Shown here piece by piece: positions 26,892 to 61,020 of a stretch of 64,000 bases of DNA (its first letter is position 1; every line of letters starts with the position of its first letter). Both the position numbers and the translations under genes were made by a program. Source of the stretch: Holophagaceae bacterium (lineage in GTDB: Bacteria; Acidobacteriota; Holophagae; Holophagales; Holophagaceae); contig JANYLR010000052.1 in NCBI GenBank assembly GCA_025363715.1, positions 1 to 64,000 of the forward strand. Reading direction: 5' to 3'. Below the pieces are notes generated by a model. The model worked only from the letters and a program-made list of their open reading frames with translations. It was not told the origin of the DNA and did no database searches.

Positions 26892-29800
26892 TTAACCAGC
26901 GACCACGGCATCCAGCGCCCCCGCACGGTAGGCGCGGACATAGCCCTTCACCAGATTGGCGTAAGCCGGATCCTGTTCGTTGAGGATGGGGAAGGTGCCG
27001 AGGATGTGGGCGATGGAATCCTCGTCCCCCGGCGTGTCGAAGCCGTAGGCCAGGAAGAAGAGGGCGTCGAGCTGGGCGCGGAGGGTGCGCCGCCGGGCGG
27101 GGTCCCAGACATAGGGGTCGCCCTCGAAGCCGCAGGCCCGGGCCATGGGCTCCAGGGCCGTGCACGTGTAACTCAGCTCCAATGCGCGGGGAGCGACGAG
27201 GGATTCCCAGGAGCAGCCGTGGAAGGATTCCCCATAGAAGGTAGGGGGCAACACTGGGAGCTGCTCGACTATAAAAAGGCTGAGATTCTGCCCTCCGATC
27301 TTCTGCCGAGTGATGTAATCCAAAATCAGGGTATTCAAGTTCGCCAGCATGCATGTTGTTAATTGAGACGACTGCCTGGTAAGCAGTAAGGAAATACTGT
27401 GGCCTGCGCCAACAATGGGGACTGGCGAAACAATGAAGGTTCGAAAATTTGTGGGTGAGGTCACACTCTTGAACGCAATAGCCCAGGCCGGAGGACCGCC
27501 GGCAAACCGTTCCTGGACCGCGGATTCCGGCACCCAGTATTGAGGCGTGGGGAAGAAGGCTGGATCGACCAACTGGGCGTCGGTGCTGGGTGCGGGTTGG
27601 GCAGGACGCCGGGCATTGGCCAGATTTACCGTGACACCGGCAGCTCGGGGATCGAAGGCTTGCAGCATCTTTCCTTCCAGCAAGGGCAGGTAGCGGCCGT
27701 TCGCGCTTCCCCAGGTGGGCAAGGCCCCCGCCTCCTGCCAGGCCCCCAGGGAATTGAGCTGGATCTGGGTTCTGAACAACCCGCTGTCGTTAGCCATATC
27801 GAACAAACGCTTATAGGTGATCCCCCAGGGGTCATGAGCCGGTGCATGGCGCTTCAGCACGGGCACGCGCTCGTAGATGCGGTGGGTCAGGGCGTGGTCC
27901 TCGGGGCTCCGGAACACGGGGCAGGTGCGGGTGTTGGGGTTCATGCGCCCGAAGTCGTCGGGCTCCAGGTGGATCATGCGCTCGGGAAGCTGGTCGGCTT
28001 GGTGGAGGAAGAAGGCCGCTGGGATGCGCGTGGCACCCCCGCCCGCCCCGGTGAAGCCCACGAGGCTGAACTTGAAACTCCGGTGGACACTGGGGAAGAG
28101 GCCCTGGCGGTTCTCGAAGTCATAGATGAAGGCCACGCGACGCTGGTCCACCATCTGGCCGAAGAAGCGGGCGTTGCCATAGTCAGTGCAGAGACCTGAG
28201 GGCACCACGAACCCGGCCCGGCCAGCCGGTTTCAGCAGACCCAGGGCCCGCTCGGTCATGAGGGCGTACAGGTTCGTATCGCCTCCGCCGAGCAGGGGAT
28301 AGGGGCCATCCGGCGCGTGGCAGTAGGACAGGAGTTCTTCCCGGACGCGTCGGGCGCTCTGAAATGCTTCCCATAACTGTGGTTCGTTCTGTTCGAGGTC
28401 CGCGATGGCGCGACGGCGCTGGGCGGTGGTTTGAAGCCGAGCGATGGCGGGGCGATGCTGGCTGAAGAACTCATTACCATCCAGAGTGATGCGCTCCCAT
28501 GGCGGATTGGTGAGCACCGCATCAAAGCCGTGCTCCCCCTCGGAGAGCAGCACCTCTGGGAAGGCCAGTTCCCAGTGAAAGAAGGTATGGCGCTGGCGGT
28601 CCTCCAGCACATTGAGGGCGCAGAGGCGCAGGTGGTCGGGGAGTTTCCCCACGGTCTCCCGGCCTTCCTGGATCAGCCGACCCAATACCCCAAGGGCGCC
28701 GTCATCCGCCAACAGGGTTGCGGCGTCGTCCACGATGACTGCACTTCGGCCCCGCCCTTCCCGGCGAGTTGGGTTGGAGAAGGCGCGGCTGGCCGTGACG
28801 TCGAGCATCACGCGCATGGCGAAGAGGCCACGTTCGGCCTTCTGATAGAGCACCTGGGATTGCTTCACCTGATCGCGGGTGGCGTCGGACAGGGCCACGA
28901 GCTGGTGGAGTTCATCCAGTACCGTTTCCACGTCGAAGCTTTGGCCCGTGGCGAAAAGGCCCGCGCCCACGGTGGCACCCTGGGCATCCTGGCGAAGGGC
29001 GCGGTAGCCCTCCAGGGTGGCGCCCACGAGGCTATTGCCGCTCTTCAGGTGGTGGTCTAGGAAACTGAGGGGTGCGCCCAGGGTGAAGCTGTCGAGCCAG
29101 AGGCTGAGCTTGGCCAATTCGACGGCCATGGGGTTGAGGTCCACCCCGAAGAGACATCGCTTCATCACGAGGCGCTTAAGCAGGCGGAGGTCGTCCAGGT
29201 GGGGCAGGATGGCCCGCCGGGCCTCCTCGGAAAGCCTCTGGGCCTGGAGGGAATCCAGCAGGGCGTGGCGCTGGGTTTCCAGGCTCTGGAGGATGGGATG
29301 CTCGGCCAGCCGGGGCTGAAGGCGGGGATCTTCCTGGTGCTCGGCGAGCAGGCTCATCAGGCCATCGGTCAGAAAATCCAGGCTGGCCACCAGGAAGTGG
29401 CCGGAGCCCATGGCTGGATCAAGCACTCGGAGATCAAGCAGGGTTTCTTCCACCTGCGCTGCGAGCTGCTTGGTTTCCTGTTCACGGCTCCGCCGGGCCA
29501 CGAGGTCCGTCTCGGCTTCACGGGCCTCGACGCAGGCCAGCCACGCCTCCAGGAGGGGGGTGGCTTTCTGGCGGCGCTCGTCGAGCACCGGCCCGAGCGT
29601 GTCCTGCACCAGCCGGGCCACGAGGCTTTCGTGGGTGTAGTAGGAGGCGGTGGTCCGGCGGACCAGGCTGTCCTGGGAGATCGTGAGGGCTCCGGGCTCC
29701 TGGTGGAGCCGGTATTCCAACAGGCCCTCGTACAGGCTTCCGAGCTGCCGGACGCCCAGGTCGCGGAAGTCCACGCGCACCCGAGCGCCGCCCACGATCA

Positions 29801-31049
29801 CACGGCTGAGGGCGTCCAGGGCGGGGATTAGCTCGGCATCGGGCACCTTCAGGGTGCGGAGCAGCGGGTGGCGCTCGGGGTCGAAGAGGCCGCCGTTGTA
29901 GTAGGGCAGGTCCAGGGCGGGGTCGCCACGATGTACGAGGTCGAAGAGGGATTCCAGGTGGCCCCAGGCCAACGCCCGGCGCCCGGCGGGGATCTGGCCA
30001 TGGTCTACAGCTGCGGCGGCCTGATCCCGGAGCGTTCGCAAACTCACGGCCAGATAGCCTGGCTGGCGCACGGGCAAAAGCTCGCGGTCTTCGGCGTAGA
30101 GGAGGAAGAGCAGCCGATAGAGCAGCACCAGGGTCGCGGCCTCCAGGGCACGCAAGTCTCCCAGGGGGCTTTTCTCCAGGCTGACGGCGCCATCCTGGGT
30201 GGCATCCCGCCACAGGCCCTTGGCCAGGGTGAGGAAGGCGCCGCCTTCTCCGTAAATGGCCTCCTCCAGCGAGGCGCCGACTTCCTGAGCGTATCGTTCC
30301 GCAGCTTCGCGGAGGCGGTCCAGGCTACAGAGTCCGGCGGCATCCCGAAGAAAGGCATTTTGAGCGAAGAACACCGGGAAGTATCGGAACCGCGCCCAGT
30401 CGCCCTCCTGCTCATGAGGCCGCTCGATCAAATCGGGCAGGTCCACCTCGAAGAAGGTCAGCGCACGGCTGGCGGCGCCTCGCCAATACAGACGCCAGTG
30501 CCGTCCATTGCTGAGGATGGCCCAAGTGATCCGGTTGCCAGAATGGATGTGGGCATCGTCCAGGTAACGGTTGATCTGGAGGACAGGATTTTCGCGATCC
30601 GAGCCGGTGCCTGCCCCTTGCAAGGGCCGCTCCCAATACTTTGCTTCCAGGAGCGTCAGGGCGTGGGGGTAGTAGGCTTCAGCCTGCCTCGACTGGAGCG
30701 CCTGGGCGGCACGGCCTTTCGCAGCATCGTCCTCAAATAGGGTATAGTCCGGTTTCCCGGAACGGAGGGCGGTCTCGCGGTGGTAGCTGAAGCCAAGGGC
30801 CTTTAGTACCGGGTCCAGCCACTGGTTGCGGGTGTCCTCCTCGTTGTGGGGCTGGCGGGTCTGAGCGTAGCTCTCCAGGAGGGCCTTCAGTTTCCCGTGC
30901 AGGGCCGCGCACCGCTCGGGCGTCCATGCCTGCCATTCGGGAAACTCGGCGATGCGCGCCTGGAGGAGGTGATCCGAGAAGAGCCCTTGATTCAGGAATG
31001 AATCGAACAGGCCGAGGTTGGACTGATGAGGATCAGGGATCTGGGCCAT
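26892..31049 (-). CDS. Type IIG (Eco57I-like) restriction-modification enzyme
   Basis: A 1385-residue single chain. The N-terminus contains a PD-(D/E)xK-type nuclease region (SGKPDYTLF followed by LTLLEAKYW, residues about 95-145). A large helical linker follows. The methyltransferase domain has SAM motif [10 protein letters not shown] near 545, [18 protein letters not shown], and catalytic NPPW near 845. The C-terminal 500 residues would recognise DNA. Such enzymes cut and methylate without separate subunits. The ATG at 31049 has only a weak GAG site; a start farther upstream gives an unlikely N-terminus. BREX PglX proteins look similar, but no BREX partner genes are present. Confidence 0.83.
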
Positions 31050-31268
31050 GTGGTAATTCACTCGGATGGGAATGACCCCGGATGTCGAGGTCCTCTGGTC
31101 AAGCCTTCTGGCTGTATAAGCAGATCTGCTCCTCAATCCTATCCGGCTAGCCCCAGCCACCCCACCACTTCATCTACATTGGCTAAATCGTCCTCCCAGC
31201 AGAATTCTCCGGGGCGATGGCCGAAACGAACTCAATCAGAGTTGATAATCGAACCCGGAGGAACCTCG

Positions 31269-32712: not shown

Positions 32713-35418
32713 TCATTGCCGCAGCTTTGTCAGCGGTGAGGTGGCGCTGCCGCCGAAGCTGGAGGTGACGGTCACGGTGGTAGGTTGGGGAACACCGTTC
32801 AGGGTCAGGGTGTAGATGCCGCCGCCGGTGGTGGTCAGCTGGGCCCCGGCGTTGTTCGGGCCGTAGCCCAGGAGCGTGAGGACCGGCGTACCGTCGAGGA
32901 TGCTCGAGGTGGCGGTGACGATCAGCCGCTGCTGACCGGTGCGGTACTCCGCGCCGGTGATGGTCACCACGTCGGCCTGATCGGCGACGGTCACCGTGAC
33001 CAGGGCGGCGGTGGAACTGAGCAGCCCGTTGCTGACGGTGAGAGTGAAGCCGAGTACCCCGGGGGTGGCGGGGGCCGTGAAGCTGGGGGCCACTGTATTG
33101 GCGCCGGTCAGGATCACTGCGGGGCCGGACACCTGGAGCCAGGCGTAGGTGAGGGGCAGCCCGTTGGGATCGGTGCTCAGGCTGCCGTCCAGGTGCACGA
33201 GGTCCCGGATCTTGACCCGCTGGTTCAAGCCGGCCTTGGCCAACGGCGGGAGGGCGGGACTGACGGTGATGGTCACCGAGGCGGTGGCCGAGAGCTGGGC
33301 GTTGTTGGTGACGGCGAGCTGGAAGGTGAGCGCCACGGGGTCGCCGGGCGCCACCACGGGCGCGCGGAAGGTGGGCGTGGTGGCCGTGGCATCGGACAGG
33401 GTGACCGGAGCCAGTCCGCCCATTCCGGTCTGGACCCAGCTGAGGGCGAGGGGGCTGGGCGGGAAGTTTCGATCCGCACTGGCGGTGGCATTGAGCTGGA
33501 CCACCGCGCCGGAGGCCACGGTCTGGTCGGCACCGGCATTGGCGATGGGCGGCACCGGGGGCGGCGGGACGTTCACGCCGACATTGACGCCGGCCGCCGC
33601 CGAGGCGATGCCCGCAGTGTTGGTGACCACCAGCTGGAAGGACAGCACCGCGTTGAGGGTGCCCAGTGGCAGGGGGGGCGCGGTGAAGGTGGGGTTGGCC
33701 ACGGTGGCGCTGTTGAGCACCACGGCGGGACCGGCGGTCTGGGTCCAGGCGAAGGCGAGGGCGAGGCCCGCTGCATCCGAGCTGCCGGTGCCGTTCAAGG
33801 TGACGGGCACGCCGCTGAAGGTGACCTGGTTCAGACCGGCGTTGGCGGTGGGCGGCAGCGGCGCGGGCGGAGGCGGCGGCTGGGGTGAGCCGCACTGGGG
33901 TACCACCTGCACGGCTCCAGGCCAGGGGGTCAGCTGGCCGACTCTGAGGCCGCCGAAGTCGCCGGTGCCGTTGACCAGGAAGGGGAAATCCACCAGGTTG
34001 AGCGGCACGGGCGGGCCGCCGACTCCCAGGTTTTCCGGGAACAGGAAGTCGAAGATCGGGGCGTGGTACTGGCCAGTGATCAGGCCGTTGCCGGAGATGA
34101 CCGGGGCCGTCAGGGTGTAGGCGCCGCGCAGGACCGCGCGCAGCTCCCGGGTGGCGGGCAGGAAGACGCCAGCCGCGGGCATGGCCACCACCTTGCTGGG
34201 TGGCCGGAAGCGCCACCGTCCCAGGACTGCGCCGCCGGCGAGGGGGCCCTGATCGACGTCGATGGTGCCCCAGGGGCGATCCGAGGTGATGGAGCTGCAG
34301 GCATCCACGTCGATGCCGTAGAAGTCCACCACTCGGCTGGGATCTGTGCAGAAGCCCTCGAACCGGGTCCGGGTGGTGGCTTCCTGGGCGATGCCGGAAA
34401 TGGGCGCGCCACCTACGCCCAGCAGCATGACGTCCACGGCCACGTAGGCCGGGTTGCTGCCGGGGAAGGTGTAGATGCCCACGTTGGCGATGAGAGTGTG
34501 GGCCGCCACGTAGGTGGCCCCGCTGCCCTCGGCGGGCATGGGGCCGGCGCTGGGCTGGAGGCCGTCCTTCATCAGGCAGCCGGAGTAGGTGACGTAGTCG
34601 CCCACTTCGAAGGGGGCGGCCAGGAAGGCGTTGGGGGTGATGCCGGGGCCGGGCCTGGGCATGGTGAACACGGTCTGGAAGAAGCCGGTGGCCAAGTTCT
34701 TGGGCCGGTTCGTCTGCGGGAGCAGCGGGTCATCCTGCACGGCCGGGTCCGAGTGGGGAAGCCCCATGGGATAGCCGGTCTCGCTGCGGATGGTGGGATT
34801 GTCGGTATCGATGGTGAAGCGGGGATCCAGGGTGTAGGCGGGGGCGAAGCGGCCGGAGGGATCGTTGATCCTGAGCCGGGTGCCGGTGGTGGGGTCGCCG
34901 ATGACCCCGCCCACCCGCAGCTCGCCGTTGGCGTAGTCCAGATAGTTGATGAACCCCTGCCCGCTATTGAGAGATTGCTGGGACAGGAACACCAGGCCGG
35001 CGATGTAGCGGTCGCCGATGCGATTGCCCTGCACGTGGACTTCATAGGTGGTCAGGGGGGCGGGGCTGTCGTTCATGGCCAGGCCGGTCTGCAGAGGCCC
35101 GTAGGGGGCCGGGGCCAGGGCGAAGACCTGCTGCCAGGTCAGGGCCAGGGCCGGCATCTGCAGGATGGTGTTGCGGGGAATGATGATGGTGGTGCCATTG
35201 ACCGACAGGGTGCCACCGGCCAGGGCATCGCCCGGGGCATCCAGAGTCGCGCTTTCGATGAAGCCGATCATGTCGAAGGGCGAGCCCACGGCTTGAAGCG
35301 GCAGCTGCGCCTGGAGGCAGCATCCCCCCACCGCGGCCAGGAGGGTGAGCACGAGCCTGAAGGCCTTCCGCAGTGCGACTGGGCCAGCCGCTTGGACGAA
35401 TGGGACCAGGTGCGTCAT
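32713..35418 (-). CDS. Secreted PKD-repeat protein, paralogue A (divergent from the oxidase operon)
   Basis: A 901-residue exported protein. The hydrophobic signal is FRLVLTLLAAVGGCCLQAQ, near residues 20-38. The N-terminal 450 residues form a conserved unnamed module starting QLPLQAVGSPFD. After a Pro-rich linker there are three PKD/K319L-like beta-sandwich repeats, each with TANAG-start and FAW-QTAGP-type cores, then a C-terminal beta domain. It is highly similar over its whole length to the protein at 37327-39987. PKD repeats usually mediate adhesion or complex assembly outside the cell. AAAGGAGG precedes the ATG. It diverges from the oxidase operon across a 425-base AT-rich region, so shared regulation is likely. 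Confidence 0.75.
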   Translation of the reverse strand: MTHLVPFVQAAGPVALRKAFRLVLTLLAAVGGCCLQAQLPLQAVGSPFDMIGFIESATLDAPGDALAGGTLSVNGTTIIIPRNTILQMPALALTWQQVFALAPAPYGPLQTGLAMNDSPAPLTTYEVHVQGNRIGDRYIAGLVFLSQQSLNSGQGFINYLDYANGELRVGGVIGDPTTGTRLRINDPSGRFAPAYTLDPRFTIDTDNPTIRSETGYPMGLPHSDPAVQDDPLLPQTNRPKNLATGFFQTVFTMPRPGPGITPNAFLAAPFEVGDYVTYSGCLMKDGLQPSAGPMPAEGSGATYVAAHTLIANVGIYTFPGSNPAYVAVDVMLLGVGGAPISGIAQEATTRTRFEGFCTDPSRVVDFYGIDVDACSSITSDRPWGTIDVDQGPLAGGAVLGRWRFRPPSKVVAMPAAGVFLPATRELRAVLRGAYTLTAPVISGNGLITGQYHAPIFDFLFPENLGVGGPPVPLNLVDFPFLVNGTGDFGGLRVGQLTPWPGAVQVVPQCGSPQPPPPPAPLPPTANAGLNQVTFSGVPVTLNGTGSSDAAGLALAFAWTQTAGPAVVLNSATVANPTFTAPPLPLGTLNAVLSFQLVVTNTAGIASAAAGVNVGVNVPPPPVPPIANAGADQTVASGAVVQLNATASADRNFPPSPLALSWVQTGMGGLAPVTLSDATATTPTFRAPVVAPGDPVALTFQLAVTNNAQLSATASVTITVSPALPPLAKAGLNQRVKIRDLVHLDGSLSTDPNGLPLTYAWLQVSGPAVILTGANTVAPSFTAPATPGVLGFTLTVSNGLLSSTAALVTVTVADQADVVTITGAEYRTGQQRLIVTATSSILDGTPVLTLLGYGPNNAGAQLTTTGGGIYTLTLNGVPQPTTVTVTSSFGGSATSPLTKLRQ

Positions 35419-35843: not shown

Positions 35844-37286
35844 ATGAATGCCATCGCCTCCAACTTCCCAAGATCAGCAGCCCTCCTGGTTGTCCTTCTG
35901 GCGTTGACCGCCTGTGGCGGCGGTGGCGGCACCGCCACCCCAGCCCCCACTCCCGTCCCCACCCCAGCGCCCGCCCCCGGGCCCACGACGAGTCGCGGCA
36001 TGATCACCGCCCCGGGCAGCGTGCTCGTCAACGGGGTCGAATACACCACCGCGGGCACCACCACCATCCTGGTGGATGGCAACCCGGGCACCCTGGCCGA
36101 CCTGACCGCAGGCCGGGTGGTCAAGGTCAGGGGCACCAGCGATGACCTGACCAAGAAGGGCAGCGCATCCCAGATCGAGATCCGGGATGCGCTGCAGGGG
36201 CCCATCGACAGCGTCGACAGCCTCAACAAGACCCTGACCGTGCTGGGGCAGGTCGTCCACCTCGAGGACAACGTGACCCACCTGAACGACGATACGGCCA
36301 AGGTCTTTGACGATGCGGGCTACCTCCCCGGGGATCTGGTCGAGGTGCACGGCTTCGCTGATAGCGCCACGGGCCTGCGCGCCACCCGGGTGGACCGGAT
36401 CGCCTCCGGCCCGCTGGAACTGAAGGGCTTCATCTCCAGCCTTAGCGGCACCTCGTTCAGCCTCAGCCTCACCAAGGGCGGCGCCGAAGTACTCGTCGTG
36501 AACTTCCTGGCCGGCACGCTGCCGGCCGGGGTGGTCAACGGAGCCCGGGTTCAGGTCCAGGCCTTGGCCCCGCCGGTGGCCGGTGTCATCACCGCCACGG
36601 CCGTGAAGCTGGAGGACCCCCTCGGCGCCCTCGGCGAGAAGGTCGCGGTGGAAGGCTATGTGGCCAACGGGGTCCTGGCCGATTTCGTGCTCGACGGGCA
36701 GGAGGTGACCACCAATGCGGCGACCCTGTTCGAAGGCGGCGTGGACTCGGATTTCGACGTGGGGGTGCGCCTGGAGGCGGAAGGCTCGGTGGACGCCGGC
36801 GGCGCCATCGTCGCCACCCGGATCCGGTTCGTGAGCGACATCAGGCTCGAGGGGGATGTCACGGGCTTCATCGGTGGTCTGGATGTGCTGGGCCTGACGG
36901 TGGGACTGGATGCCTTCACCCGCATCGACACGCCCATCGACTTGACGCTCAACAAGCATGTCCTGGTCAGCGCCGTACTGGATCGCAACGGAGCCCTGAA
37001 GGCCACCCGGGTCGCGGTGCTGCCCTTGTCCAGCAAGGCCTCCTTCCAGGGCCCGGTGAGCACGGCCGATGCCACCGCCGGCAGCTTGACCATCCTGGGC
37101 CAGACCTTCTCATCCAATAGCGTCACCCAATGGCGGGCCAGTTCCACGGCCAGTGAGGTGGCGACCACCAAGGCCGCCTTCTTTGCCCAGGTGATCCCCA
37201 AGGCCACCGTGGTGAAGATCCGCTGGAATCATTTCGGGCTGCTGACCGACCCGGCGACGGAAGCCGAAATCGAGCTGGGCCATTGA
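35844..37286 (+). CDS. DUF5666-like repeat lipoprotein, first gene of the oxidase operon
   Basis: A 480-residue lipoprotein. Signal peptide and lipobox LTAC (C24) are followed by a Gly-run and a Thr/Pro-rich linker. The mature part is a series of about five small beta-barrel repeats of the DUF5666 type (for example VSTADATAGSLTILGQTF and IDSVDSLNKTLTVLGQVV), ending in NHFGLLTDP. The family's role is unknown; a ligand-binding or scaffolding part at the outer membrane is likely. GAGGAA lies upstream of ATG 35844. The next gene starts 40 bases after its stop, and the six following genes run the same way with minimal gaps. Confidence 0.78.
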   Translation: MNAIASNFPRSAALLVVLLALTACGGGGGTATPAPTPVPTPAPAPGPTTSRGMITAPGSVLVNGVEYTTAGTTTILVDGNPGTLADLTAGRVVKVRGTSDDLTKKGSASQIEIRDALQGPIDSVDSLNKTLTVLGQVVHLEDNVTHLNDDTAKVFDDAGYLPGDLVEVHGFADSATGLRATRVDRIASGPLELKGFISSLSGTSFSLSLTKGGAEVLVVNFLAGTLPAGVVNGARVQVQALAPPVAGVITATAVKLEDPLGALGEKVAVEGYVANGVLADFVLDGQEVTTNAATLFEGGVDSDFDVGVRLEAEGSVDAGGAIVATRIRFVSDIRLEGDVTGFIGGLDVLGLTVGLDAFTRIDTPIDLTLNKHVLVSAVLDRNGALKATRVAVLPLSSKASFQGPVSTADATAGSLTILGQTFSSNSVTQWRASSTASEVATTKAAFFAQVIPKATVVKIRWNHFGLLTDPATEAEIELGH

Positions 37287-37326: not shown

Positions 37327-39987
37327 ATGACGATGCTGGTCCCGCGCAGGATGGTCAAGATCGCGCTCGCCCTCCTCGCCCTCGTTGGGGGAGGCCCGGC
37401 CTGGGCCCAGCTGCCGCTCCAGCCGGCGGGCTCACCCTTCGACATGACCGGTTTCCTGGAAAGCGCCACCCTGGATGCGCCCGGCGACCTCCTGGCCGGT
37501 GGCACCCTGAAAGTCAACGGCACCTCCATCATCGTCCCCCGCAACACCATCCTGCAGATGCCGGCCCTGGCCCTGACCTGGCAGCAGGTCTTCGCCCTGG
37601 CCCCGGCCCCCTACGGGCCCCTGCAGACCGGCCTGGCCAAGCACGACAGCCCGGCCCCCTTGAGCACCTATGAAGTCCATGTGCAGGGCAACCGCATCGG
37701 CAATCGCCACATCGCCGGCCTGGTATTCCTGTCGCAGCTGGGCCTCAACAGCGGCCAGGGCTTCATCAATTTCATGGACTACGCCAACGGCGAGCTGCGG
37801 GTGGGCGGGGTCATCGGCGACCCCACCACCGGCACCCGGCTCAGGATTAACGATCCCTCCGGCCGCTTCGCCCCCGCCTACACCCTGGATCCCCGCTTCA
37901 CCATCGATACCGACAATCCCACCATCCGCAGCGCCACCGGCTACCCCATGGGGTTTCCCCACTTTGATCCGGCCGTGCAGGATGACCCGCTGATCCCGCA
38001 GGGGAACCGGCCCAAGGATGCGCTGACCGGGCTCTACCTGACCAGCTTCACCATGCCCAAACCCGGCTCGGGGATCACCCCCAACGCCTTCCTGGCCGCC
38101 CCGTTCCAGGTGGGCGACCTGATCACTTATTCCGGCTGCCTGATGAAGGATGGCCCCCAGCCCAGCGCCGGGCCCCTTCCCGCCGCAGGCCGGGCGGCCA
38201 CCTACGTGGCGGCCCACACCCTCATCGCCAATGTGGGCATCTACACCTTCCCCGGCAGCAACCCGGCCTACGTGGCCGTGGACGTCATGCTGCTGGGCGT
38301 GGGCGGCATTCCCATCAACGGCATCCCCCAGGAAGCCACTACCCGGACCCGGTTCGAAGGCTTCTGCACGGACCCCAGCCGGGTGGTGGATCTCTTCGGC
38401 ATCGACGTGGACGCCTGCAGCAGCAACACTGGCGACCGTTCCTGGGGCACCAGCGACGTGGATCAAGGCCCTGCCGCCGGCGGCGCCGTCCTGGGCCGGT
38501 GGCGCTTCCGGCCGCCCAGCAAGGTGGCAGCCATGCCTGCGACTGGCGTCTTCCTGCCTGCTACGCGTGAGATGCGCGCGGTCCTGCGCGGCGCCTACAC
38601 CGCGGCGGCCCCGGTCATCTCCGGCAACGGCCTGATCACCGGCCAGTACCACGCCCCGATCTTCGAGTTCCTGTTCCCCGAGAACCTGGGCGTAGGCAAT
38701 CCCCCGGTACCGCTCAATTTCAACGAATTCCCCTTCCTGGCCAATGGCACCGGCGGCTTCAACGGCGTCAACGTGGGCCAGCTCAATCCGTTCCCGGCGG
38801 CAGTGGTGCCCATCCCCACCTGCAACCCGGTGGTGACGCCCGGTCCCCCCACCGCCAATGCCGGCGCGGCCCAGACGGTGGCCGGGGGCGCCCCGGTCAC
38901 CCTGAATGGCTCGGCCAGCACCGATCCCAGTGCCCTGGCCCTGGCCTTCGCCTGGACCCAGACCGCGGGCCCAGCGGTGGCCCTCAACAGCGCCACCGTC
39001 GCCAACCCCACCTTTACCGCTCCCGTCGTGGCGGCCGGCGCCCCCAGCACCCTGCTGTCCTTCCAGCTGGTGGTCACCAACACCGCGGGCCTGGCTTCGA
39101 CCGCCGCCTTCGCCCAGGTCACGGTCACCCCCCCGGCGCCACCAGCGCCGCCCATCGCCAATGCCGGCACCGCCCAGTCGGTGGCCTCCGGCGCCATCGT
39201 CCAGCTCAACGGCACCGCCACCTCGGACCCCAACATCCCGGCCAGGCCCCTCACCTTCGCCTGGGTGCAGACCGCCTTCGCCGGGCTGCCGCCGGTGACC
39301 CTGTCCGGCACCACCACGGCCACCCCCACCTTCCGCGCCCCCGTCGTTCCGGGCCAGGCGCCCGCGGTGCTCACCTTCCGGCTCACCGCCAGCAATAACC
39401 TGCCCCTGTCCGCCTCGGCCACGGTGACCATCACGGTCAAGCCCGCAACCGCCCCCGTGGCCAACGCCGGCCCCAACCAGGGGGTCCAGCTCCCGGCGCT
39501 GGTGCACCTGGACGGCAGCCTCAGCTCCGATCCCAGCGGGCTGCCCCTCACCTATGCCTGGACCCAGGTTTCCGGTCCCGCCGTGGCGCTCACCGGCCCC
39601 ACCACCGTGAGTCCCACCTTCACCACGCCCCCGAAACCGGGGCTGCTGGGCTTCACCCTCACCGTGAACAACGGCCTGCTCTCGTCCACGCCCAGCCTGG
39701 TCACCGTCACGGTGAACGCCGGTGTCAACGATGCCGTGATCATCACCCTCGCCGAGTACCGGCTCGCCCAGCAGCGCCTCACCATCAACGCCACCTCGAA
39801 CATCGCTGATGGCTCGCCAGTCCTCACGCTGCAGGGGTATGGCCCCAACAAGGCCGGCGTGCCGATGACCTACACCGGCGGTGGCATCTATACCGTGATC
39901 CTCACCGGCGTGGCGCAACCCGACTCGGTAATCGTGACCTCCAGCTTCGGGGGCACCGCGACCTCCGGCCTCACCCGACTCCGCTAA
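37327..39987 (+). CDS. Secreted PKD-repeat protein, paralogue B
   Basis: An 886-residue protein with signal peptide (VKIALALLALVGGGPAWA, cleavage near 27) and the same layout as paralogue A: an unnamed 450-residue N-terminal module, three PKD/K319L-like repeats, and a C-terminal beta domain. Blocks such as GIYTFPGSNPAYVAVDVMLL are identical in both. AAGGAG lies nine bases upstream of ATG 37327. It is second in the operon, 28 bases before the multicopper oxidase gene, so it is probably a structural partner of the oxidase. An open frame of 900 codons on the opposite strand is a composition artefact. Confidence 0.77.
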   Translation: MTMLVPRRMVKIALALLALVGGGPAWAQLPLQPAGSPFDMTGFLESATLDAPGDLLAGGTLKVNGTSIIVPRNTILQMPALALTWQQVFALAPAPYGPLQTGLAKHDSPAPLSTYEVHVQGNRIGNRHIAGLVFLSQLGLNSGQGFINFMDYANGELRVGGVIGDPTTGTRLRINDPSGRFAPAYTLDPRFTIDTDNPTIRSATGYPMGFPHFDPAVQDDPLIPQGNRPKDALTGLYLTSFTMPKPGSGITPNAFLAAPFQVGDLITYSGCLMKDGPQPSAGPLPAAGRAATYVAAHTLIANVGIYTFPGSNPAYVAVDVMLLGVGGIPINGIPQEATTRTRFEGFCTDPSRVVDLFGIDVDACSSNTGDRSWGTSDVDQGPAAGGAVLGRWRFRPPSKVAAMPATGVFLPATREMRAVLRGAYTAAAPVISGNGLITGQYHAPIFEFLFPENLGVGNPPVPLNFNEFPFLANGTGGFNGVNVGQLNPFPAAVVPIPTCNPVVTPGPPTANAGAAQTVAGGAPVTLNGSASTDPSALALAFAWTQTAGPAVALNSATVANPTFTAPVVAAGAPSTLLSFQLVVTNTAGLASTAAFAQVTVTPPAPPAPPIANAGTAQSVASGAIVQLNGTATSDPNIPARPLTFAWVQTAFAGLPPVTLSGTTTATPTFRAPVVPGQAPAVLTFRLTASNNLPLSASATVTITVKPATAPVANAGPNQGVQLPALVHLDGSLSSDPSGLPLTYAWTQVSGPAVALTGPTTVSPTFTTPPKPGLLGFTLTVNNGLLSSTPSLVTVTVNAGVNDAVIITLAEYRLAQQRLTINATSNIADGSPVLTLQGYGPNKAGVPMTYTGGGIYTVILTGVAQPDSVIVTSSFGGTATSGLTRLR

Positions 39988-40015: not shown

Positions 40016-43428
<3,413 letters not shown>

Positions 43429-43432
<4 letters not shown>

Positions 43433-44112
43433 TCAAACCAGGTCTTGCCCTCGTCGTCCCGTGCCTCACCGCCCTGGCCTGCGCACCGGTCTGGGCCTCG
43501 GTGGGCTGCGACCTCAACAATCCCGACCGGGACGTGGCGCGGCTCTTCCCGGGCTCCACGGGGTTCAAGACCGTCGAAGTGGACATCCAGAAGCTGGGCG
43601 GCGATCCGCTGCTGGCCAGGGTCGAATCCCGGATGCGGGACAAGCTGCACGGCCTCTACGAATCCATCGACGTGCCCTACACCATCTATGTCATCTACCG
43701 GAACAAGGACATCATCGGCTACATCCACGGCGTCAACCAGAAGGGGCGCTTCGGCGGGATCCAGATCTTCCTGGTCCTCAGCCTCGAGCTTCGGATCAAG
43801 ACCTTGTACATCCAGAAAATGTCCGGCACCTATGCCGGGAGCTTCCGCCAGGCGGAGTTCGAAGGGCAGTTCACCGGGCTGACCCTGGGGGATTTCGACC
43901 GATTCGATGTGGCCACCGGACAGGTCACCGGAAAACTGGCCGGGATCAAGACTCCCGAGCCCGGGGCAGAGTTCGATTTCAGCCGCACCCTGCGCGGCAT
44001 CAAGAAGAACCTAATCCTGGTGACCGAGTTTTTCACCATCTCGCCGGATCTGGCTACCAGGTTGTTGACCTCCCCGATCAAGAAACCTTCCCTGCCTGGA
44101 GGTGGGCAATGA
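43429..44112 (+). CDS. Small exported protein of the oxidase operon, unknown function
   Basis: A 227-residue protein with a signal peptide (LALVVPCLTALACAPVWAS). The mature part shows GYIHGVNQKGRFGGIQIFL and a following IKTLYIQKMSGTYAGSFR segment, reminiscent of FMN-binding (RnfG/NosR-like) beta-folds, but the flavin-attachment Thr motif is not clear. Its ATG overlaps the oxidase stop (ATGA), and its stop overlaps the next start (ATGA), so it is made together with both. Position between two redox proteins suggests a cofactor-handling or electron-transfer accessory; this is inference. I have no confident family name. Confidence 0.7.
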
Positions 44113-46730
44113 CGAACCCCTTACGTTCGTGGCAGCGCTACGCACTTGGTCTGTTGGCCATCGCCCTGGTGGGCTATGGCCCGCCAGGTCCCGCACAAGG
44201 GGTGCCGACACCGCCGCCAGGCCTGTTCCAGATGCCCCTCAGCCAAATCCCCGTGCCCGAGCCGCCCAACCTGTACCAGTTCGTCAAGGACAAGGCGGCC
44301 GCCATCCGGCTGGGCAAGGCTTTGTTCTGGGACGTGCAGGCCGGCAGCGACGGCCAGGTGGCCTGCGCCACCTGTCATTTCGACGCGGGCGTGGACAAGC
44401 GGCGCAAGAACACCCTCAACCCGGGCACCCGGAGCAACGACCAGAGCTTTCAGGTGCGCGGGCCCAACCAGACCCTGCTGGATTCCGATTTCCCGTTCCA
44501 TGTGCGGCAGAACCCTGATCTCCAGCGTTCGGCCGTGCTCCGGGACAGCAACGACGTGGTGGGCTCCCAGGGGGTCCGGAAGGCCACCTTCCTGGCCACC
44601 GTCAGCGGCTCGGCCCTGGACGCCACCCGCTCCGTCGCCGATCCGGTCTTCCAGGACGCCGGGGTGAATGTTCGCCAGGTCACGGCCCGCAACGCCCCCA
44701 GCGTGATCAACGCGATCTTCAACTTCGAGAATTTCTGGGATGGCCGCGCCCACAACATTTTTAACGGCAACAACCCCTTCGGCCCCTTGGACACCAGCGC
44801 CGGCGTCTGGTTCCAGAGCGGCACCCCAGGGAGCCCGGTGCTGGTGAAGGCACCGGTCATCATCGAGGCCGCCAGCCTGGCCTCCCAGGCGGTGGGCCCT
44901 GTTCTGGACAGCGTTGAGATGTCGGCCGCGGGCCGGACCTTCCCGGATCTTGCGCGGAAGCTGCTGTCCCTCACCCCCCTGGGCAAACAGGCCGTCCACC
45001 CCGGCGACAGTGTGCTGGGCCCCCTATCCCGGGCCGTGCTGCTGCCGGGCGGCCAGCTCACCGGGGCCAATGGCCTCAACCGTTCGTACGGCACCATGAT
45101 CAAGGCCGCCTTCCTGGACTCCCTGACCTCCACCAGCCTGACGGCTCCGGACGGCTCCACGCAGCTGGAGGCCAACTTCTCCCTGTTCTGGGGCCTGGCC
45201 ATCCAGTTGTACGAGGCCACCCTGGTGTCCGACCAGACGCCCTTCGACCGCTTCCTGGGGGGAGATTCCACCGCCATCACTCAGCTGCAGGGGGATGGCA
45301 TGAACCTCTTTTTCGGCGGCACCGGCAAATGCAACACCTGCCATGCCGGCACCGAGCTCACCGCCGCCTCGGCCACCGCCAACGCCTTCCTCACCAACCT
45401 CAGCAACCGGGTGCTGGACCAGATGGTGGCCGGCGGGCGGGACACCATCTACGACAACGGCTTCAACAGCACCGGCCTGCGCCCCACGACGGAGGACTCC
45501 GGCCGGGGTGGAAACTCCCCCTTCACCAATCCGGCCACCGGCCAGTTCCTCCCCCTGGATTACGCCTCCCTGGCCGAGATCCAGGCCCTGGGCCAGTTGC
45601 CCTTCCCCTCCGTGGTGCTGCCGCCACAACTGCCGGCCACCTTCCCCGTGGCCAACCGCGGGGCCTTCAAGGTGCCGGGGCTCCGCAACGTGGAGCTCAC
45701 GGCCCCCTATTTCCATGACGGCAGCGTGCTGACCCTGGAAGATGTGGTGCACTTCTATGTCCGCGGGGGCAACTTCCCGACCGTGGCCCAGAGCCCGAGC
45801 CTGGATTCGGCCATCTCCGAGATCGGCGGCATGCAGAACGCCCCCGACAAGGTGGCGGCCATGGTGGCCTTCCTGCGCTCCCTCACCGACGAGCGGGTGC
45901 GGAACCATTCCGCGCCCTTCGACCATCCGGAAATTCTCATCCCCGAGGGCGAGCCGGAGGTCCTGACCCTGATCCCGGCCCGGGACGCCACCGGCACGCC
46001 GGCCTCGTCCATCGCCCTCACCCTGGACACGCTTCCCGCCATCACCAACAGGCCCAGCCTCCAGCTCAGCGGCACCCGGCAGACCGGGGCAGTGATCCAG
46101 ATCCAGGTCAACGGCGGAGCCACCATCCAGGCTGCCACGCCCACTGCGGCCTCCTGGAACGCCACCGTCTCCGGACTGGTGGAAGGCGTCAACAGCCTCA
46201 CCGCCACGGCCACCCTCCCCAACAGCGTTCCGGTGACCCTGAACGCCACCATCACGCTGGATTCCACTGCCCCCACCCTGAACCTGGATCCCGTGCCCAC
46301 CCCCATCCAGGGCTCCACCCTGACCCTGTCCGGCACCGTGGAAGGCGGACTGACTCCCTTGGTCACCGTCAGCACCTCGGCTGTGCCCGCCACCACCACC
46401 GTGAACGGCATCCTTTGGAGCGCCCAACTCACCGGGCTGGTGCCCGGGATCAACAATGTCACCGTGCTCGCCATCGATCCAGCCGGCAACGTGGCCAGCA
46501 GGACCGCCGCCATCACCGTCGTGGTGGCCGACGGAATCCTGAGCGGAGGTCCCACCATCGCCACCGCCGATGCGCTCAAGGCCCTGCGGCTGTCCCTGGG
46601 TGTGCTGCCCCCCACCCTGAACGACCTGGTGCACGGGGATGTGATGCCTGCGGGCGCGCCCGACGGCATCATCGACGTGGCCGACGCTCTGCGGATTCTG
46701 CGCAAGGCGGCCGGACTCGTCACCTTCTGA
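44109..46730 (+). CDS. Di-heme MauG/cytochrome c peroxidase-like protein with Ig-like and dockerin-like C-terminus
   Basis: An 873-residue exported protein. Two c-heme sites, CATCH (near residue 87) and CNTCH (near 407), lie in a MauG/bacterial cytochrome c peroxidase fold; the family's LRNVELTAPYFHDGS segment is near 525. Two Ig-like beta domains follow (about 620-790). The end is a dockerin-like pair, ADALKALRLSLGV and GDVMPAGAPDGIIDVADALR. Peroxidases of this type use two hemes to reduce peroxide or oxidise a protein substrate. ATG 44109 overlaps the previous stop and has GGAGG upstream; the longer frame before it is a shadow. The dockerin probably docks on the cohesin-like lipoprotein encoded next. 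Confidence 0.88.
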   Translation: MTNPLRSWQRYALGLLAIALVGYGPPGPAQGVPTPPPGLFQMPLSQIPVPEPPNLYQFVKDKAAAIRLGKALFWDVQAGSDGQVACATCHFDAGVDKRRKNTLNPGTRSNDQSFQVRGPNQTLLDSDFPFHVRQNPDLQRSAVLRDSNDVVGSQGVRKATFLATVSGSALDATRSVADPVFQDAGVNVRQVTARNAPSVINAIFNFENFWDGRAHNIFNGNNPFGPLDTSAGVWFQSGTPGSPVLVKAPVIIEAASLASQAVGPVLDSVEMSAAGRTFPDLARKLLSLTPLGKQAVHPGDSVLGPLSRAVLLPGGQLTGANGLNRSYGTMIKAAFLDSLTSTSLTAPDGSTQLEANFSLFWGLAIQLYEATLVSDQTPFDRFLGGDSTAITQLQGDGMNLFFGGTGKCNTCHAGTELTAASATANAFLTNLSNRVLDQMVAGGRDTIYDNGFNSTGLRPTTEDSGRGGNSPFTNPATGQFLPLDYASLAEIQALGQLPFPSVVLPPQLPATFPVANRGAFKVPGLRNVELTAPYFHDGSVLTLEDVVHFYVRGGNFPTVAQSPSLDSAISEIGGMQNAPDKVAAMVAFLRSLTDERVRNHSAPFDHPEILIPEGEPEVLTLIPARDATGTPASSIALTLDTLPAITNRPSLQLSGTRQTGAVIQIQVNGGATIQAATPTAASWNATVSGLVEGVNSLTATATLPNSVPVTLNATITLDSTAPTLNLDPVPTPIQGSTLTLSGTVEGGLTPLVTVSTSAVPATTTVNGILWSAQLTGLVPGINNVTVLAIDPAGNVASRTAAITVVVADGILSGGPTIATADALKALRLSLGVLPPTLNDLVHGDVMPAGAPDGIIDVADALRILRKAAGLVTF

Positions 46731-54584: not shown

Positions 54585-57500
54585 TCAATCCTCTGAGACC
54601 GGCACTCCCACCCACTCCCCGCTCCTCAGCGCCACCAGCCAGGCCTCGACCGGCTTCCCGTCCCTGGCCTTCAGGGCCTCGGCATACCGGGCCAACTGCT
54701 CCCGATAGACGGCCAGTTCCTCTTCCCCGAAGCCCTTGGAATGTTTGAAGTCCAGGAGATGGATGCGGTCCTGGTCCCAGACCACCAGATCGGCTCGGCC
54801 CAGCGCGCCACTGGCGGCGGCACCCTCCAGAGGCAACTCGGTGCGCCGTCGGAGGCGGCGCCAACCCCGAGCTTCGAATTGCTGCAGGAACCGGAGCGCG
54901 TTCTCTCGCACGTGCGCGACTTCCGGCGCCGCAGCCAGGCAGGCCGCGAAGGCCTGGTTGTCCTCCCAGCGGACCAGCAGATCCCGCAGGAAAGCGTGAA
55001 CGGCCTCCCCTTCCTGGCGGGCCTTGGTACTCGTATCCGCAGGCCCCCCCTCATGAGCGTCCGAGCTGTTCCTGCCCTCGGAGAGCGCCACCCGCCACCG
55101 GGGTGGCTCCGATGAAACGCCGCTCGCCTTCTGGATGGGGGCCATCGGAGGGGCTTCCGCAAGTTCCTTCAGTTCCGGATGGGCGCCTGCGAGGTGCTGG
55201 CCGAACTGGGCCCAGGTCCTGGCGGCAGCGGGAGATTCCTGTTTTTTGGGTTCCTGGAGCAGCAGGCACAGGCGCTCCCGGGACCGGGTCAGGGCCACGT
55301 AGAGGAGGTTTAGATCATCCCGCCGCTGGCGCGCCTCCACGATCGGCTTGAGCTCCCGATAGGCGCGGCCGGGATGGTTGCCCAGCTTCCAGGCGAGCAG
55401 GAGTTCCCCCGTTCGCGTCCGCGTCCGCACGTCGCCCCGCTGGAAGGACCTGGGACGGGCGTGCAGCAGGGGCAGGATGACGTCCTCGTACTCGAGGCCC
55501 TTGCTGCCATGGGCGGTCTGGATGATGAGGTCCGCCGCCTCGGCCAGGGCCGGCAGATCACCCCGCTCCGCCCCGGTCCGCTCGTCGGCCAGCAGGGCGT
55601 AGGCGACCGCTGGGCTGGCCGGCAGGTCCATGAGCATCGTCAGGAAGGTCGCCAGGTTCCGCCTGGCCCGCAGGGGTTCCATGGCTCCATGGACGGCCAG
55701 GGCGCTGATGGCGCGCAGCACCGCGCCCTGTCGCAGCAGCCGTCCTGCGATCTCCTGGGTGGAGGCCTGGCGCAGGTCCAGCAGCCCATTCGCGGCCTCC
55801 TGATGCTCCAGGGGGAGATCCTCTGGATCCAACGAGCCCAGGCCGGGGAGACCCGCTCGCCCCTCCTTGGAAAAGGTCAATCGAGTGATCTCAGCCTCGC
55901 TGAGCCCCACCACCAGACGCAGCAGGGCCGTGCATGGGAGCGGGCGCTCGGGATGCGCCACCGCCTCCAGGGCCGCCATGACGAGTCGGATACCTGGGCT
56001 ATCCCAAAACCCCGATTTCGCGACCACGTACGGCTGGATGCCTTTGGCTTTCAATCGCTGAAGCAGGGCCGGCAGCTTGGTACGCTGCTTGAGCAGCAGG
56101 ACTCTGCGGCGCGGGCCGGGCTTCGGGGTGCCACCCAGGCACTGCACCCACCCCGTTTCCCTGGAGAGTCCGGCGATCCAGTCCGACAGGGTCGTGAGGT
56201 CCGCCCAGGAGGTGGGCATGGCGGTTCGGACCAGACCCACTGGCAGCGCATCAGGGAGGACCGACTCCTGCCGTCCATCCAGGTCCCCGGCATCCGGATC
56301 GAGCTGCGGCCAGACTTCATCCACGAACCGATTGGCCAGGGCCACCACCTGAGGCGTGGAGCGGAAGTTGGAAGGCAACCGGAAGGCGTGGTCTCCCGCA
56401 GCCACCAGGTGCTGGCGCAACAGGTCGGGATCCCCACCCCGGAACCCGTAGATGGCTTGTTTGATGTCACCCACGCGGACGACCCGCTCCGCGCCCAGCT
56501 CAGCCAGGAAAGCATCCTGCGAACGCGAGGTGTCCTGGTACTCATCCACCAGCAGCAGCTTCGGGGGCTGGCCATCCCATCCGCCTGCCCGCAGGCTCTT
56601 GAGGGCCTTTCGAACCAGATCCCCGAAGGTGGCCATGGCCAAGTCCTGCTTCCGGACTTCGAACCGCCCCAGGGCTTCCACCAGGAGGCACCGCAGCCAG
56701 GCCTCCAGGGCATCGACCACGGGTTCGAAGGTGGCCATAGCCGCCCGGAGGGCTTCGGAGTAGTACCCCTTCTCGGCCTCCACCCGCCCACTCTGGCCAC
56801 TGGCCCAGCGAAGGCGGGTGGCCAGATCCGAACCTGGAGACGGCACCTGGAGAATGCAGGATGGCTTGAAGAACCGTCTCGAAGAACTGGCCGGATCGAG
56901 TCCCGACATCGGATTCGCGGCGAAAGGAAGCAGGGCCTGCTCCGCGCGATCCAGGGCGACGACCAGCCGGGTGCGGCAGGGGGCGGCATCCTCAGGCTCC
57001 AGGTGCCCCATGGCGTCCTGGTGATTGTCGTGGGCCCTCGATAGGCTCTCCCAGTTCCGCTCCGCCCAGACCAGCAGGAGCCGGGCGGCCACCTGGTCCG
57101 GATCCCCGTCGGGCCGCGTCAGGGACTCCCGCACGGTCTGGCGGAGCAACCGGAGCAGGCCCGGATGCTCCACATCCAGGATGGTGAGGGTCGCGCCCTC
57201 TCCTCGGCTCATGACCCGCATGGCCAGGCTGTGGATGGTGGAGACCTGGAGCAATTCCGCCTCCCGGCGGGTTCGCCGCCAGAAAGCCTGGGCTTTCGCG
57301 GCTGAATCCTGCCAGGGCGCGCCGCGCCAGTGGGCGGCCGCCTGCGCCACTTCCCCGGCGGATTTCTTCAGCCGATCGGGGAGGGCCAGGGCCTTCAAGT
57401 ACGGCTCGATCGCCCCCACCTCCGGATCGACGAGCAAGGGCAACAACTCCTTCCACGCGGAGGTACCCAAGGCTGTCAGCAGGTCCAGGGGGCGCAGCAG

Positions 57501-57692
57501 GCGCTCCCGGAGATCCGCCGCGGAGGCTTCGCTGAAGGTGGTGGCCAGGATCTCGTAGGAGCGGAGCTCACCGCGCCCCAGGTTGGCCGTGACCAGCACA
57601 CAGAGCGTGAACGTCTTCCCGGATCCAGCACTGGCGCTGACGACCATGGAATGATCAAGGAGGCGGGGATCGCTCAGATCAAGGTCGCGCAT
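54585..57692 (-). CDS. addA: AddA/RecB-like helicase-nuclease
   Basis: A 1035-residue UvrD-type helicase with a C-terminal nuclease. Motifs: ASAGSGKT (K26), VDEYQDTSRSQ, GDIKQAIYGFRGGDP, LPSNFRST, TAHGSKGLEYEDVILPL, and VALTRSRERL. The nuclease core is GRADLVVWDQDRIHLLDFKHSKG, followed by YREQLARYAEAL. With the partner encoded just upstream it would resect double-strand breaks for RecA loading and degrade foreign linear DNA. It starts one base after the AddB-like gene ends. It is shorter than Bacillus AddA but complete. Confidence 0.88.
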   Translation of the reverse strand: MRDLDLSDPRLLDHSMVVSASAGSGKTFTLCVLVTANLGRGELRSYEILATTFSEASAADLRERLLRPLDLLTALGTSAWKELLPLLVDPEVGAIEPYLKALALPDRLKKSAGEVAQAAAHWRGAPWQDSAAKAQAFWRRTRREAELLQVSTIHSLAMRVMSRGEGATLTILDVEHPGLLRLLRQTVRESLTRPDGDPDQVAARLLLVWAERNWESLSRAHDNHQDAMGHLEPEDAAPCRTRLVVALDRAEQALLPFAANPMSGLDPASSSRRFFKPSCILQVPSPGSDLATRLRWASGQSGRVEAEKGYYSEALRAAMATFEPVVDALEAWLRCLLVEALGRFEVRKQDLAMATFGDLVRKALKSLRAGGWDGQPPKLLLVDEYQDTSRSQDAFLAELGAERVVRVGDIKQAIYGFRGGDPDLLRQHLVAAGDHAFRLPSNFRSTPQVVALANRFVDEVWPQLDPDAGDLDGRQESVLPDALPVGLVRTAMPTSWADLTTLSDWIAGLSRETGWVQCLGGTPKPGPRRRVLLLKQRTKLPALLQRLKAKGIQPYVVAKSGFWDSPGIRLVMAALEAVAHPERPLPCTALLRLVVGLSEAEITRLTFSKEGRAGLPGLGSLDPEDLPLEHQEAANGLLDLRQASTQEIAGRLLRQGAVLRAISALAVHGAMEPLRARRNLATFLTMLMDLPASPAVAYALLADERTGAERGDLPALAEAADLIIQTAHGSKGLEYEDVILPLLHARPRSFQRGDVRTRTRTGELLLAWKLGNHPGRAYRELKPIVEARQRRDDLNLLYVALTRSRERLCLLLQEPKKQESPAAARTWAQFGQHLAGAHPELKELAEAPPMAPIQKASGVSSEPPRWRVALSEGRNSSDAHEGGPADTSTKARQEGEAVHAFLRDLLVRWEDNQAFAACLAAAPEVAHVRENALRFLQQFEARGWRRLRRRTELPLEGAAASGALGRADLVVWDQDRIHLLDFKHSKGFGEEELAVYREQLARYAEALKARDGKPVEAWLVALRSGEWVGVPVSED

Positions 57693-57693
57693 C

Positions 57694-60654: not shown

Positions 60655-61020
60655 TCCTGGCCTCAGTGGGTTCAGTGCACTTGAGTATCCTGGCAGACCG
60701 AGTGCGACACCGGCTGTCCACCCACCCGGCCGTGGATCTGCTGGCACGGGGTTGGCGCCCGGTCGCCAGAGGCCAGACCTCATCCTTCAATCGCCGACCC
60801 TCTTCCCATCGCCTTGGGGGGAGGCCTCTCCCGAATCAAAGCGTCGTCGAGACCTTCCATCGGACCTCGCTGGTTGGATGGTGCGGATATCCATTGATTG
60901 ATCTGGTTCTAGATCAAAGTATCTATGTTTAGATTTGATTCATGTTGTTGATTATTTTTTTGTTGCAACATGGACTTTGAAACCTATGCTTGCTCATCTG
61001 AAACCCCACAGGAGATCGCC
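60655..61020. promoter_or_regulatory. Promoter gap with a TTGATC/GATCAA inverted repeat
   Basis: No gene is seen in this 366-base gap between divergent genes. TTGATC (60898-60903) and GATCAA (60912-60917) form an inverted repeat with an 8-base spacer, in an AT-rich stretch running to about 60965. It is a possible operator for the small membrane-protein gene. Confidence 0.35.

Follow-up and report, generated by a model that had tools for sequence, protein, structure and literature searches.

The surface copper protein MopE/CorA of methanotrophs is, in the account given in PMC3912023, an exported beta-rich protein that is co-transcribed with SACCP/CorB, a dihaem protein of the BCCP/MauG family, and oxidation of a Trp of MopE/CorA to kynurenine by this dihaem partner is suggested there, not proved. 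A second system of interest is the putative mnxG operon of P. putida GB-1, which according to Table 4 of PMC11409713 comprises MnxG, a YVTN propeller, SCO1, a further SCO1, a substrate-binding/cytochrome c protein and a SurA-like protein. The iox iodide-oxidase cluster of Iodidimonas, as described in PMC9415286, contains a multicopper oxidase (MCO), SCO1 genes and proteins of unknown function, with gsp genes adjoining. The locus analysed here is like the methanotroph system in that a presumably exported, beta-rich protein is encoded with a MauG-like dihaem protein, and it and its relatives are like the iox cluster in gene content (MCO, SCO1, proteins of unknown function and secretion genes). 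It is unlike the GB-1 operon in that a smaller, bilirubin-oxidase-like MCO takes the place of MnxG. In the open-licence full-text library searched we found no paper joining a PKD domain, a multicopper oxidase and a cytochrome c peroxidase.

The locus lies in a 64,000-nucleotide stretch of DNA from a Holophagaceae bacterium (assembly GCA_025363715.1, contig JANYLR010000052.1, positions 1 to 64,000), referred to here as the window, and centres on two paralogous PKD proteins. Gene 1 (32713-35418, minus strand, 901 aa) encodes a signal peptide (by eye), a module of ~460 residues, a Pro-rich linker, three K319L-like PKD domains and a C-terminal domain; gene 2 (37327-39987, plus strand, 886 aa) has the same architecture, and the two proteins are 74% identical over the whole alignment. 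A sequence-only reading of the window had proposed that the N-terminal part is strongly conserved between these paralogues, more so than the PKD part. Both points were borne out, as the two window copies are 86% identical in the module, compared with 67% in the PKD repeats and 66% in the C-terminal domain. The interval it had given, 32713-35200, covers most of the module of gene 1 but includes the PKD part and omits the first ~73 residues; we place the module at 33892-35307 (minus strand, residues 38-509 of the 901-aa protein), and its second copy at 37408-38823 (plus strand). The dN/dS ratio between the two genes is 0.30 for the module and 0.49 for the PKD repeats (0.30 for the C-terminal domain), and the module is therefore under more constraint than the repeats. 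However, because dS differs among the parts, being lowest in the module (0.32, versus 0.50 in the PKD repeats and 0.81 in the C-terminal domain), gene conversion or a mixed history may account for part of the excess module identity. A third module copy lies outside the window in the same genome (contig C83, 76-77% identity). In the tree, the window pair is joined at 99/99 within a clade of Holophagaceae rows at 100/99. The C-terminal end of gene 1 (window 32713-32980, TSSFGGSATS..LTKLR) can be recognised by eye in many of the module proteins encoded at other loci, in spite of the differences between their PKD parts.

The same reading had recognised no family in the module, and this held in the profile searches, which gave no clear match to a characterised domain. 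Searches of both window proteins against Pfam and NCBIfam gave no match before residue 503. With 16 module members in Pfam and 36 in NCBIfam, no family was found for member 1, and the output consisted of three stray weak rows and three stray rows, respectively. A PDB sequence search with the window proteins gave no match inside the module, and one with the module profile gave a single row at E 0.39, which is chance level. PKD, REJ and M36 matches were rejected as the identity of the module, all being confined to the C-terminal part, and photosystem XI rows (3 of 36 members, best 0.0028) were read as chance. A single known family was likewise rejected as the answer, given that no library match was found. 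The module is a conserved domain new to the libraries searched.

The AlphaFold2 model of the module (mean pLDDT 83.2, pTM 0.83) predicts an OB-like barrel at the N-terminus, followed by a middle part that includes a very conserved stretch and then by a beta-sandwich. Residues 3-114 aligned to OB barrels, with RecO best (Z 6.7, 71 residues, 2.9 A) and SSB (Z 6.4), CusF (6.2) and CcmE (5.8) among the further rows. When residues 112-462 were folded alone (pLDDT 74.6), module residues 284-425 (173-314 of that model) gave the C-terminal domain of Nir2 as the best match (Z 7.9, 94 residues, 3.0 A), and the next rows (adhesin, gingipain, complement and antibody, mostly Ig-like) reached a Z of at most 6.8. 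The best Z of each part is below the tool's own level of 8, and values of this size may reflect a common arrangement and nothing more. Foldseek found no match at E <= 0.001 for either model; its arrestin, complement and antibody rows were read as common beta sandwiches and set aside. Structure prediction, which had been put forward with the profile search as a check, therefore brought no close solved match for the predicted folds. Comparison of parts of the module with each other by hhalign found no internal repeat.

Asp80, Asn148, Asp161, Asp167, Asp193, Arg201 and Asp237 are invariant in all 36 rows of the module alignment. All of these except Asp80 and Asp237 fall in the very conserved stretch at ~148-202, whose Asp, Asn and Arg residues would suit a putative Ca or Mn site. 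No His or Cys column reaches 85% conservation in this alignment, and a majority His in the motif EVHVQGN is absent from some rows. Trp58 is present in 31 of 35 modules. It is missing from L075, L076 and both alignment rows of L077, and likewise from the Roseomonas frame; in the tree these rows are divergent, and their long branches may join falsely. As a marker of linkage to the dihaem gene this residue has exceptions both ways, as it is lost in L076, where a dihaem gene is present, and kept in Holophagaceae loci that lack one; it is a candidate for the target residue of the dihaem enzyme. Two Paraburkholderia rows (L004) and one Roseomonas row (L005) are absent from the 36-member alignment (A2), from A3 and from both structure predictions. 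Compared with MopE/CorA, the module has no conserved His pair of the copper site and one Trp (Trp58), it often carries PKD repeats and has MCO and SCO1 neighbours, and it gave no match to MopE/CorA in the PDB searches. Judged by its residues, the module is not a MopE/CorA member, because the His pair of the copper site is missing.

In the window, gene 2 belongs to a head-to-tail plus-strand run with gaps of 40, 28, -4 and -4 bases. The run begins with a DUF5666 repeat protein (35844-37286; PF18914, 119 bits; lipoprotein-type signal by eye), and gene 2 is followed by the bilirubin-oxidase-like MCO (40016-43432; four His-x-His copper motifs; lipoprotein-type signal by eye), a 227-aa ORF (43429-44112; signal-like start by eye, no Pfam match) that overlaps each neighbour by 4 bases, and the MauG-like dihaem protein (44109-46730; two CxxCH motifs, a Big_13 tail below cut-off and a dockerin-like end by eye). 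Gene 1 is divergent from this run, with its start ~420 bases upstream. In the source genome (84% complete) a CCP_MauG gene was found once, namely the window dihaem gene, and Cu-oxidase_2 genes were found twice. The second copper oxidase of this genome (contig C24; L082:5660-8329) is 55% identical to the window MCO, and its 13.8-kb contig gave no module, DUF5666 or dihaem match. The N-terminus of the window MCO contains DxDGD repeats (thrombospondin-3-like by eye) in near-identical units with DAFPFDPAAS.

The DUF5666 neighbour raises the question of whether the module arose by structural elaboration within the DUF5666 repeat family and has a generic role in the envelope, the gene clustering being due to shared regulation only. 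A DUF5666 repeat profile matched the module profile in plausible register at positions 30-48, 119-135 and 242-256, with P values of 0.097, 0.0082 and 0.0056; the best P in the controls was 0.16 in 100 column-shuffled profiles and 0.032 in 54 MCO- and dihaem-family decoys, although the repeat seed had been cut by eye after the link was already suspected. The predicted OB-like barrel, the true DUF5666 protein in the window run and the kinase and regulator genes near four loci also fit such an origin. However, with an hhalign probability of only 6.6% the similarity amounts to a hint, and of the 16 members scanned none reaches the PF18914 cut-off and one matches at E 0.2. Unlike DUF5666 proteins, the module lies under any membership threshold, has a long conserved insertion and is predicted to have a sandwich as its third domain. 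We regard derivation from DUF5666 as very improbable.

The redox neighbours of the module are largely intact in their motifs. In the pooled loci, all ten MCOs contain the four His copper motifs including the HCH type 1 motif, and 17 of 18 dihaem partners, that of the window included, contain two CxxCH haem motifs. The dihaem frame at L068:6276-7706 is short, with a single CxxCH, and looks broken or frameshifted. According to PMC6405878, MauG and BthA have Tyr-His ligation where the peroxidases have Met-His. In all 17 readable dihaem rows a Tyr stands 42 residues from the start of the match to MauG 252-298, a position presumed to correspond to the axial ligand of the six-coordinate haem of MauG; this placement comes from the Paraburkholderia dihaem protein, which matches MauG 252-298 at equal length, and assumes that the match is gap-free and that the chain index corresponds to residue 294. 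Against the MbnH model (TIGR04039) the dihaem partners scored 113 and 118 bits, where the cut-off is 362.85, and the dihaem protein is far under the MauG cut-off too. Given these scores, and with ordinary dihaem peroxidases as its closest matches in the PDB, the dihaem protein may also have plain peroxidase activity.

A scan of genome contigs gave ten module loci, in Holophagaceae, Geothrix, Thermoanaerobaculia, other Acidobacteria and one betaproteobacterium. The module is rare in the phylum (3 of 396 genomes, counting the source genome) and in the class of the betaproteobacterial bin (4 of 369, counting the bin itself). It is frequent in one acidobacterial genus, where 7 of 9 genomes are positive with up to seven matched stretches in each, some of which are split matches. 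Among plasmid records, the module was found in three from Paraburkholderia (two copies in the one examined) and one from Roseomonas. The Roseomonas module (L005:9651-11191) is split over two overlapping reading frames, owing either to gene decay or to an error of sequencing.

We counted the redox genes within 10 kb of 35 module places, which comprise a first set of 27 places in 13 genomes and those of eight more module-bearing genomes, with the plasmid records in neither. A dihaem (CCP_MauG) gene lay near 20 places where 0.53 were expected, and a copper oxidase gene near 9 where 1.09 were expected; neither count was matched in any of 200,000 simulations, although this test ignores contig ends and kinship. 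The first set alone gave 19 for the dihaem gene (0.52 expected) and 8 for the copper oxidase (0.89 expected). One genus supplies 20 of the 35 places and 15 of the 20 dihaem cases, and elsewhere the dihaem gene is found at 5 of 15 places. The sequence-only reading had raised the question of whether homologues always sit beside multicopper oxidases; an MCO is present in the window, but the homologues are not always so placed. The dihaem enzyme is a commoner neighbour than the MCO, yet not a universal one. Seven module-bearing genomes (G398, G400-G403, G780 and G781; six Holophagaceae MAGs and, as G398, a bin with both module and MCO) gave no CCP_MauG match genome-wide, bearing in mind that bins may be incomplete, and the dihaem enzyme is therefore not needed in every host.

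A pool of 31 loci gave a similar picture of the neighbourhood, with the dihaem family in 18, a bilirubin-oxidase-like copper oxidase in 10, an SCO1 family in 6, a DUF5666-like gene in 4, and an exported protein that is beta-propeller-like by eye in 8. This pool omits L001-L003, L007, L008, L012 and the short L017-L059, and its L072 locus yielded no module frame. The stretches examined of L007 and L008 contain no dihaem gene, so that adding both turns 18/31 into 18/33. Two of three pooled SCO1 proteins scanned are fused to cytochrome c, two of three propeller-like proteins scanned gave no Pfam match, and further SCO1 genes, outside the pooled family, are present in L005 and L084. The dihaem-bearing loci span Acidobacteriota and betaproteobacteria.

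The loci without redox neighbours bear on a reading close to that first proposed for the window, in which the module serves a surface PKD protein in ligand binding or adhesion and is functionally unconnected with the redox genes. The PKD repeats and the predicted OB-like and sandwich folds would suit such a role. At the C83 copy and at the Holophagaceae loci L006, L007, L008, L009, L010 and L016 the module adjoins another PKD protein, with no dihaem or MCO gene beside it, and the six Holophagaceae MAGs that lack a CCP_MauG gene are of this kind. The co-localisation counts argue against it, as does the recurrence of these partner genes in both Acidobacteriota and betaproteobacteria, and we consider it unlikely. 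The neighbours of the module suggest a redox context instead.

Several other gene arrangements resemble parts of these clusters. A Comamonadaceae 360-aa protein (L087:8191-9273), encoded near MCO, SCO1 and dihaem genes, looked like a module analogue by eye, but it was rejected as a relative at E 8.4, having no detectable homology. The small genes that follow the MCO in L004, L087 and the window show no clear kinship. In L088 (Fuscovulum) and L089 (Limimaricola), related MCO and SCO1 pairs lie near very long genes annotated 'peroxidase family protein'; no module was found in either stretch, and no dihaem gene is annotated there.

In one genome (G726; L083 and L075), an MnxG-like operon ends with a module gene that lacks PKD repeats. 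At L075 the order is an MnxG-like protein (open frame of 2058 aa), a 193-aa protein, a YVTN propeller, SCO1, a cytochrome c/substrate-binding protein and the module. The MnxG-like, YVTN propeller, SCO1 and cytochrome c/substrate-binding genes thus keep the order of the GB-1 operon, whereas the module gene stands at the SurA-like position, one small gene is added and one SCO1 is missing. The Roseomonas plasmid (L005) encodes, in order, an MnxG-like oxidase, a 211-aa protein, a 616-aa protein with no family match, SCO1, cytochrome c and the module, and so shares the MnxG-like, SCO1 and cytochrome c genes with GB-1. Against the MnxG model NF041487 the L075 and L005 oxidases scored 443 and 605 bits (their frames are cut by the locus end); they are termed MnxG-like only, because the curated cut-off is 3100 bits, which none of the 369 genomes sampled exceeded. 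Kinase and regulator genes at other loci recall the MnxS/MnxR regulation of P. putida: a family of 678-687-aa proteins (PAS histidine kinases in both of two scanned) and response-regulator genes lie near the module clusters at L060, L064, L068 and L071.

These operons raise the possibility that the module serves a metal-oxidising MCO as an accessory subunit, with a role akin to that of MnxE/F or IoxC, which would bind or template Mn or Fe (oxide) through its conserved carboxylates, the dihaem protein serving only as an electron carrier. The terminal position of the module gene in the G726 and Roseomonas operons speaks for this reading, and the gene order at L075 is close to that given for GB-1 in PMC11409713; the invariant Asp residues and Asn148 could supply the ligands. 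Secretion genes adjoin the Paraburkholderia cluster (L004), one of two annotated module loci, as they do the iox clusters described in PMC9415286, and all 8 module genomes of one comparison have Cu-oxidase_2 genes, though so do 9 of 14 control genomes. However, 26 of the 35 places have no MCO of the Pfam family searched within 10 kb, a model that detects MnxG-like proteins poorly. Of the 369 genomes sampled, 6 gave an MnxG match, and the module was found in only one of these; among the best 20 of 30 plasmid records matched by the Roseomonas MnxG-like protein, that of Roseomonas is the only one of the four module-bearing records. The module is an extra part of some mnxG-like operons, far from a general one, and a subunit role of this kind seems to us a possible but doubtful explanation.

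The explanation that we tentatively prefer, while rating it at somewhat less than an even chance, is that the module forms the N-terminal part of a family of exported proteins that act as non-enzymatic partners in copper/haem oxidation, either in the envelope or outside the cell, and that it is perhaps the target of the dihaem enzyme. This is the simplest account. The conservation of the module, the fold predicted for it, its association with the redox genes and the intact haem and copper motifs are findings, whereas export and a surface location, a physical partnership, the direction of the chemistry and the substrate are inferences. It is favoured by the excess of dihaem and copper oxidase genes near the module, by the tight window run with the sole CCP_MauG gene found in the source genome, by the conserved CxxCH, Tyr and MCO motifs, and by the published MopE/CorA parallel together with the retention of Trp58 in most modules. 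Against it stand the genomes free of CCP_MauG, the concentration of dihaem cases in one genus, the loss of Trp58 in L076 and the lack of a highly conserved His or Cys column. According to this copper/haem partner model, the Sec system would export the module protein and the PKD repeats, where present, would act as a stalk holding the module off the cell. SCO1-type chaperones, where present, would supply copper to the oxidase, and the MauG-type dihaem enzyme, where present, would act either directly on the module or together with it, most probably through oxidation of aromatic side chains, as has been suggested for the action of SACCP/CorB on MopE/CorA. The matured proteins would then oxidise an outside reductant, e.g. 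Mn(II), a halide or a phenol. A more specific version, which we judge improbable, is that the dihaem enzyme builds a protein-derived redox group (an oxidised Trp or Tyr) in the module, and that the matured protein and the copper oxidase together oxidise Mn(II), halide or phenol outside the cell; if true, this would be a previously undescribed class of extracellular oxidase. To our knowledge, the targets of the MauG-like enzyme family are known in few cases. The domain described here, new to the libraries, joins the exported proteins that are encoded with such enzymes, and is also tied to some Mn-oxidase-like operons.

Elsewhere in the window, 26892-31160 encodes a protein like the Eco57I/MmeI restriction-modification methylases, and 54585-60783 encodes a UvrD-like helicase with a PD-(D/E)XK nuclease domain that adjoins a second PD-(D/E)XK nuclease protein, an arrangement resembling an AddAB-type pair.
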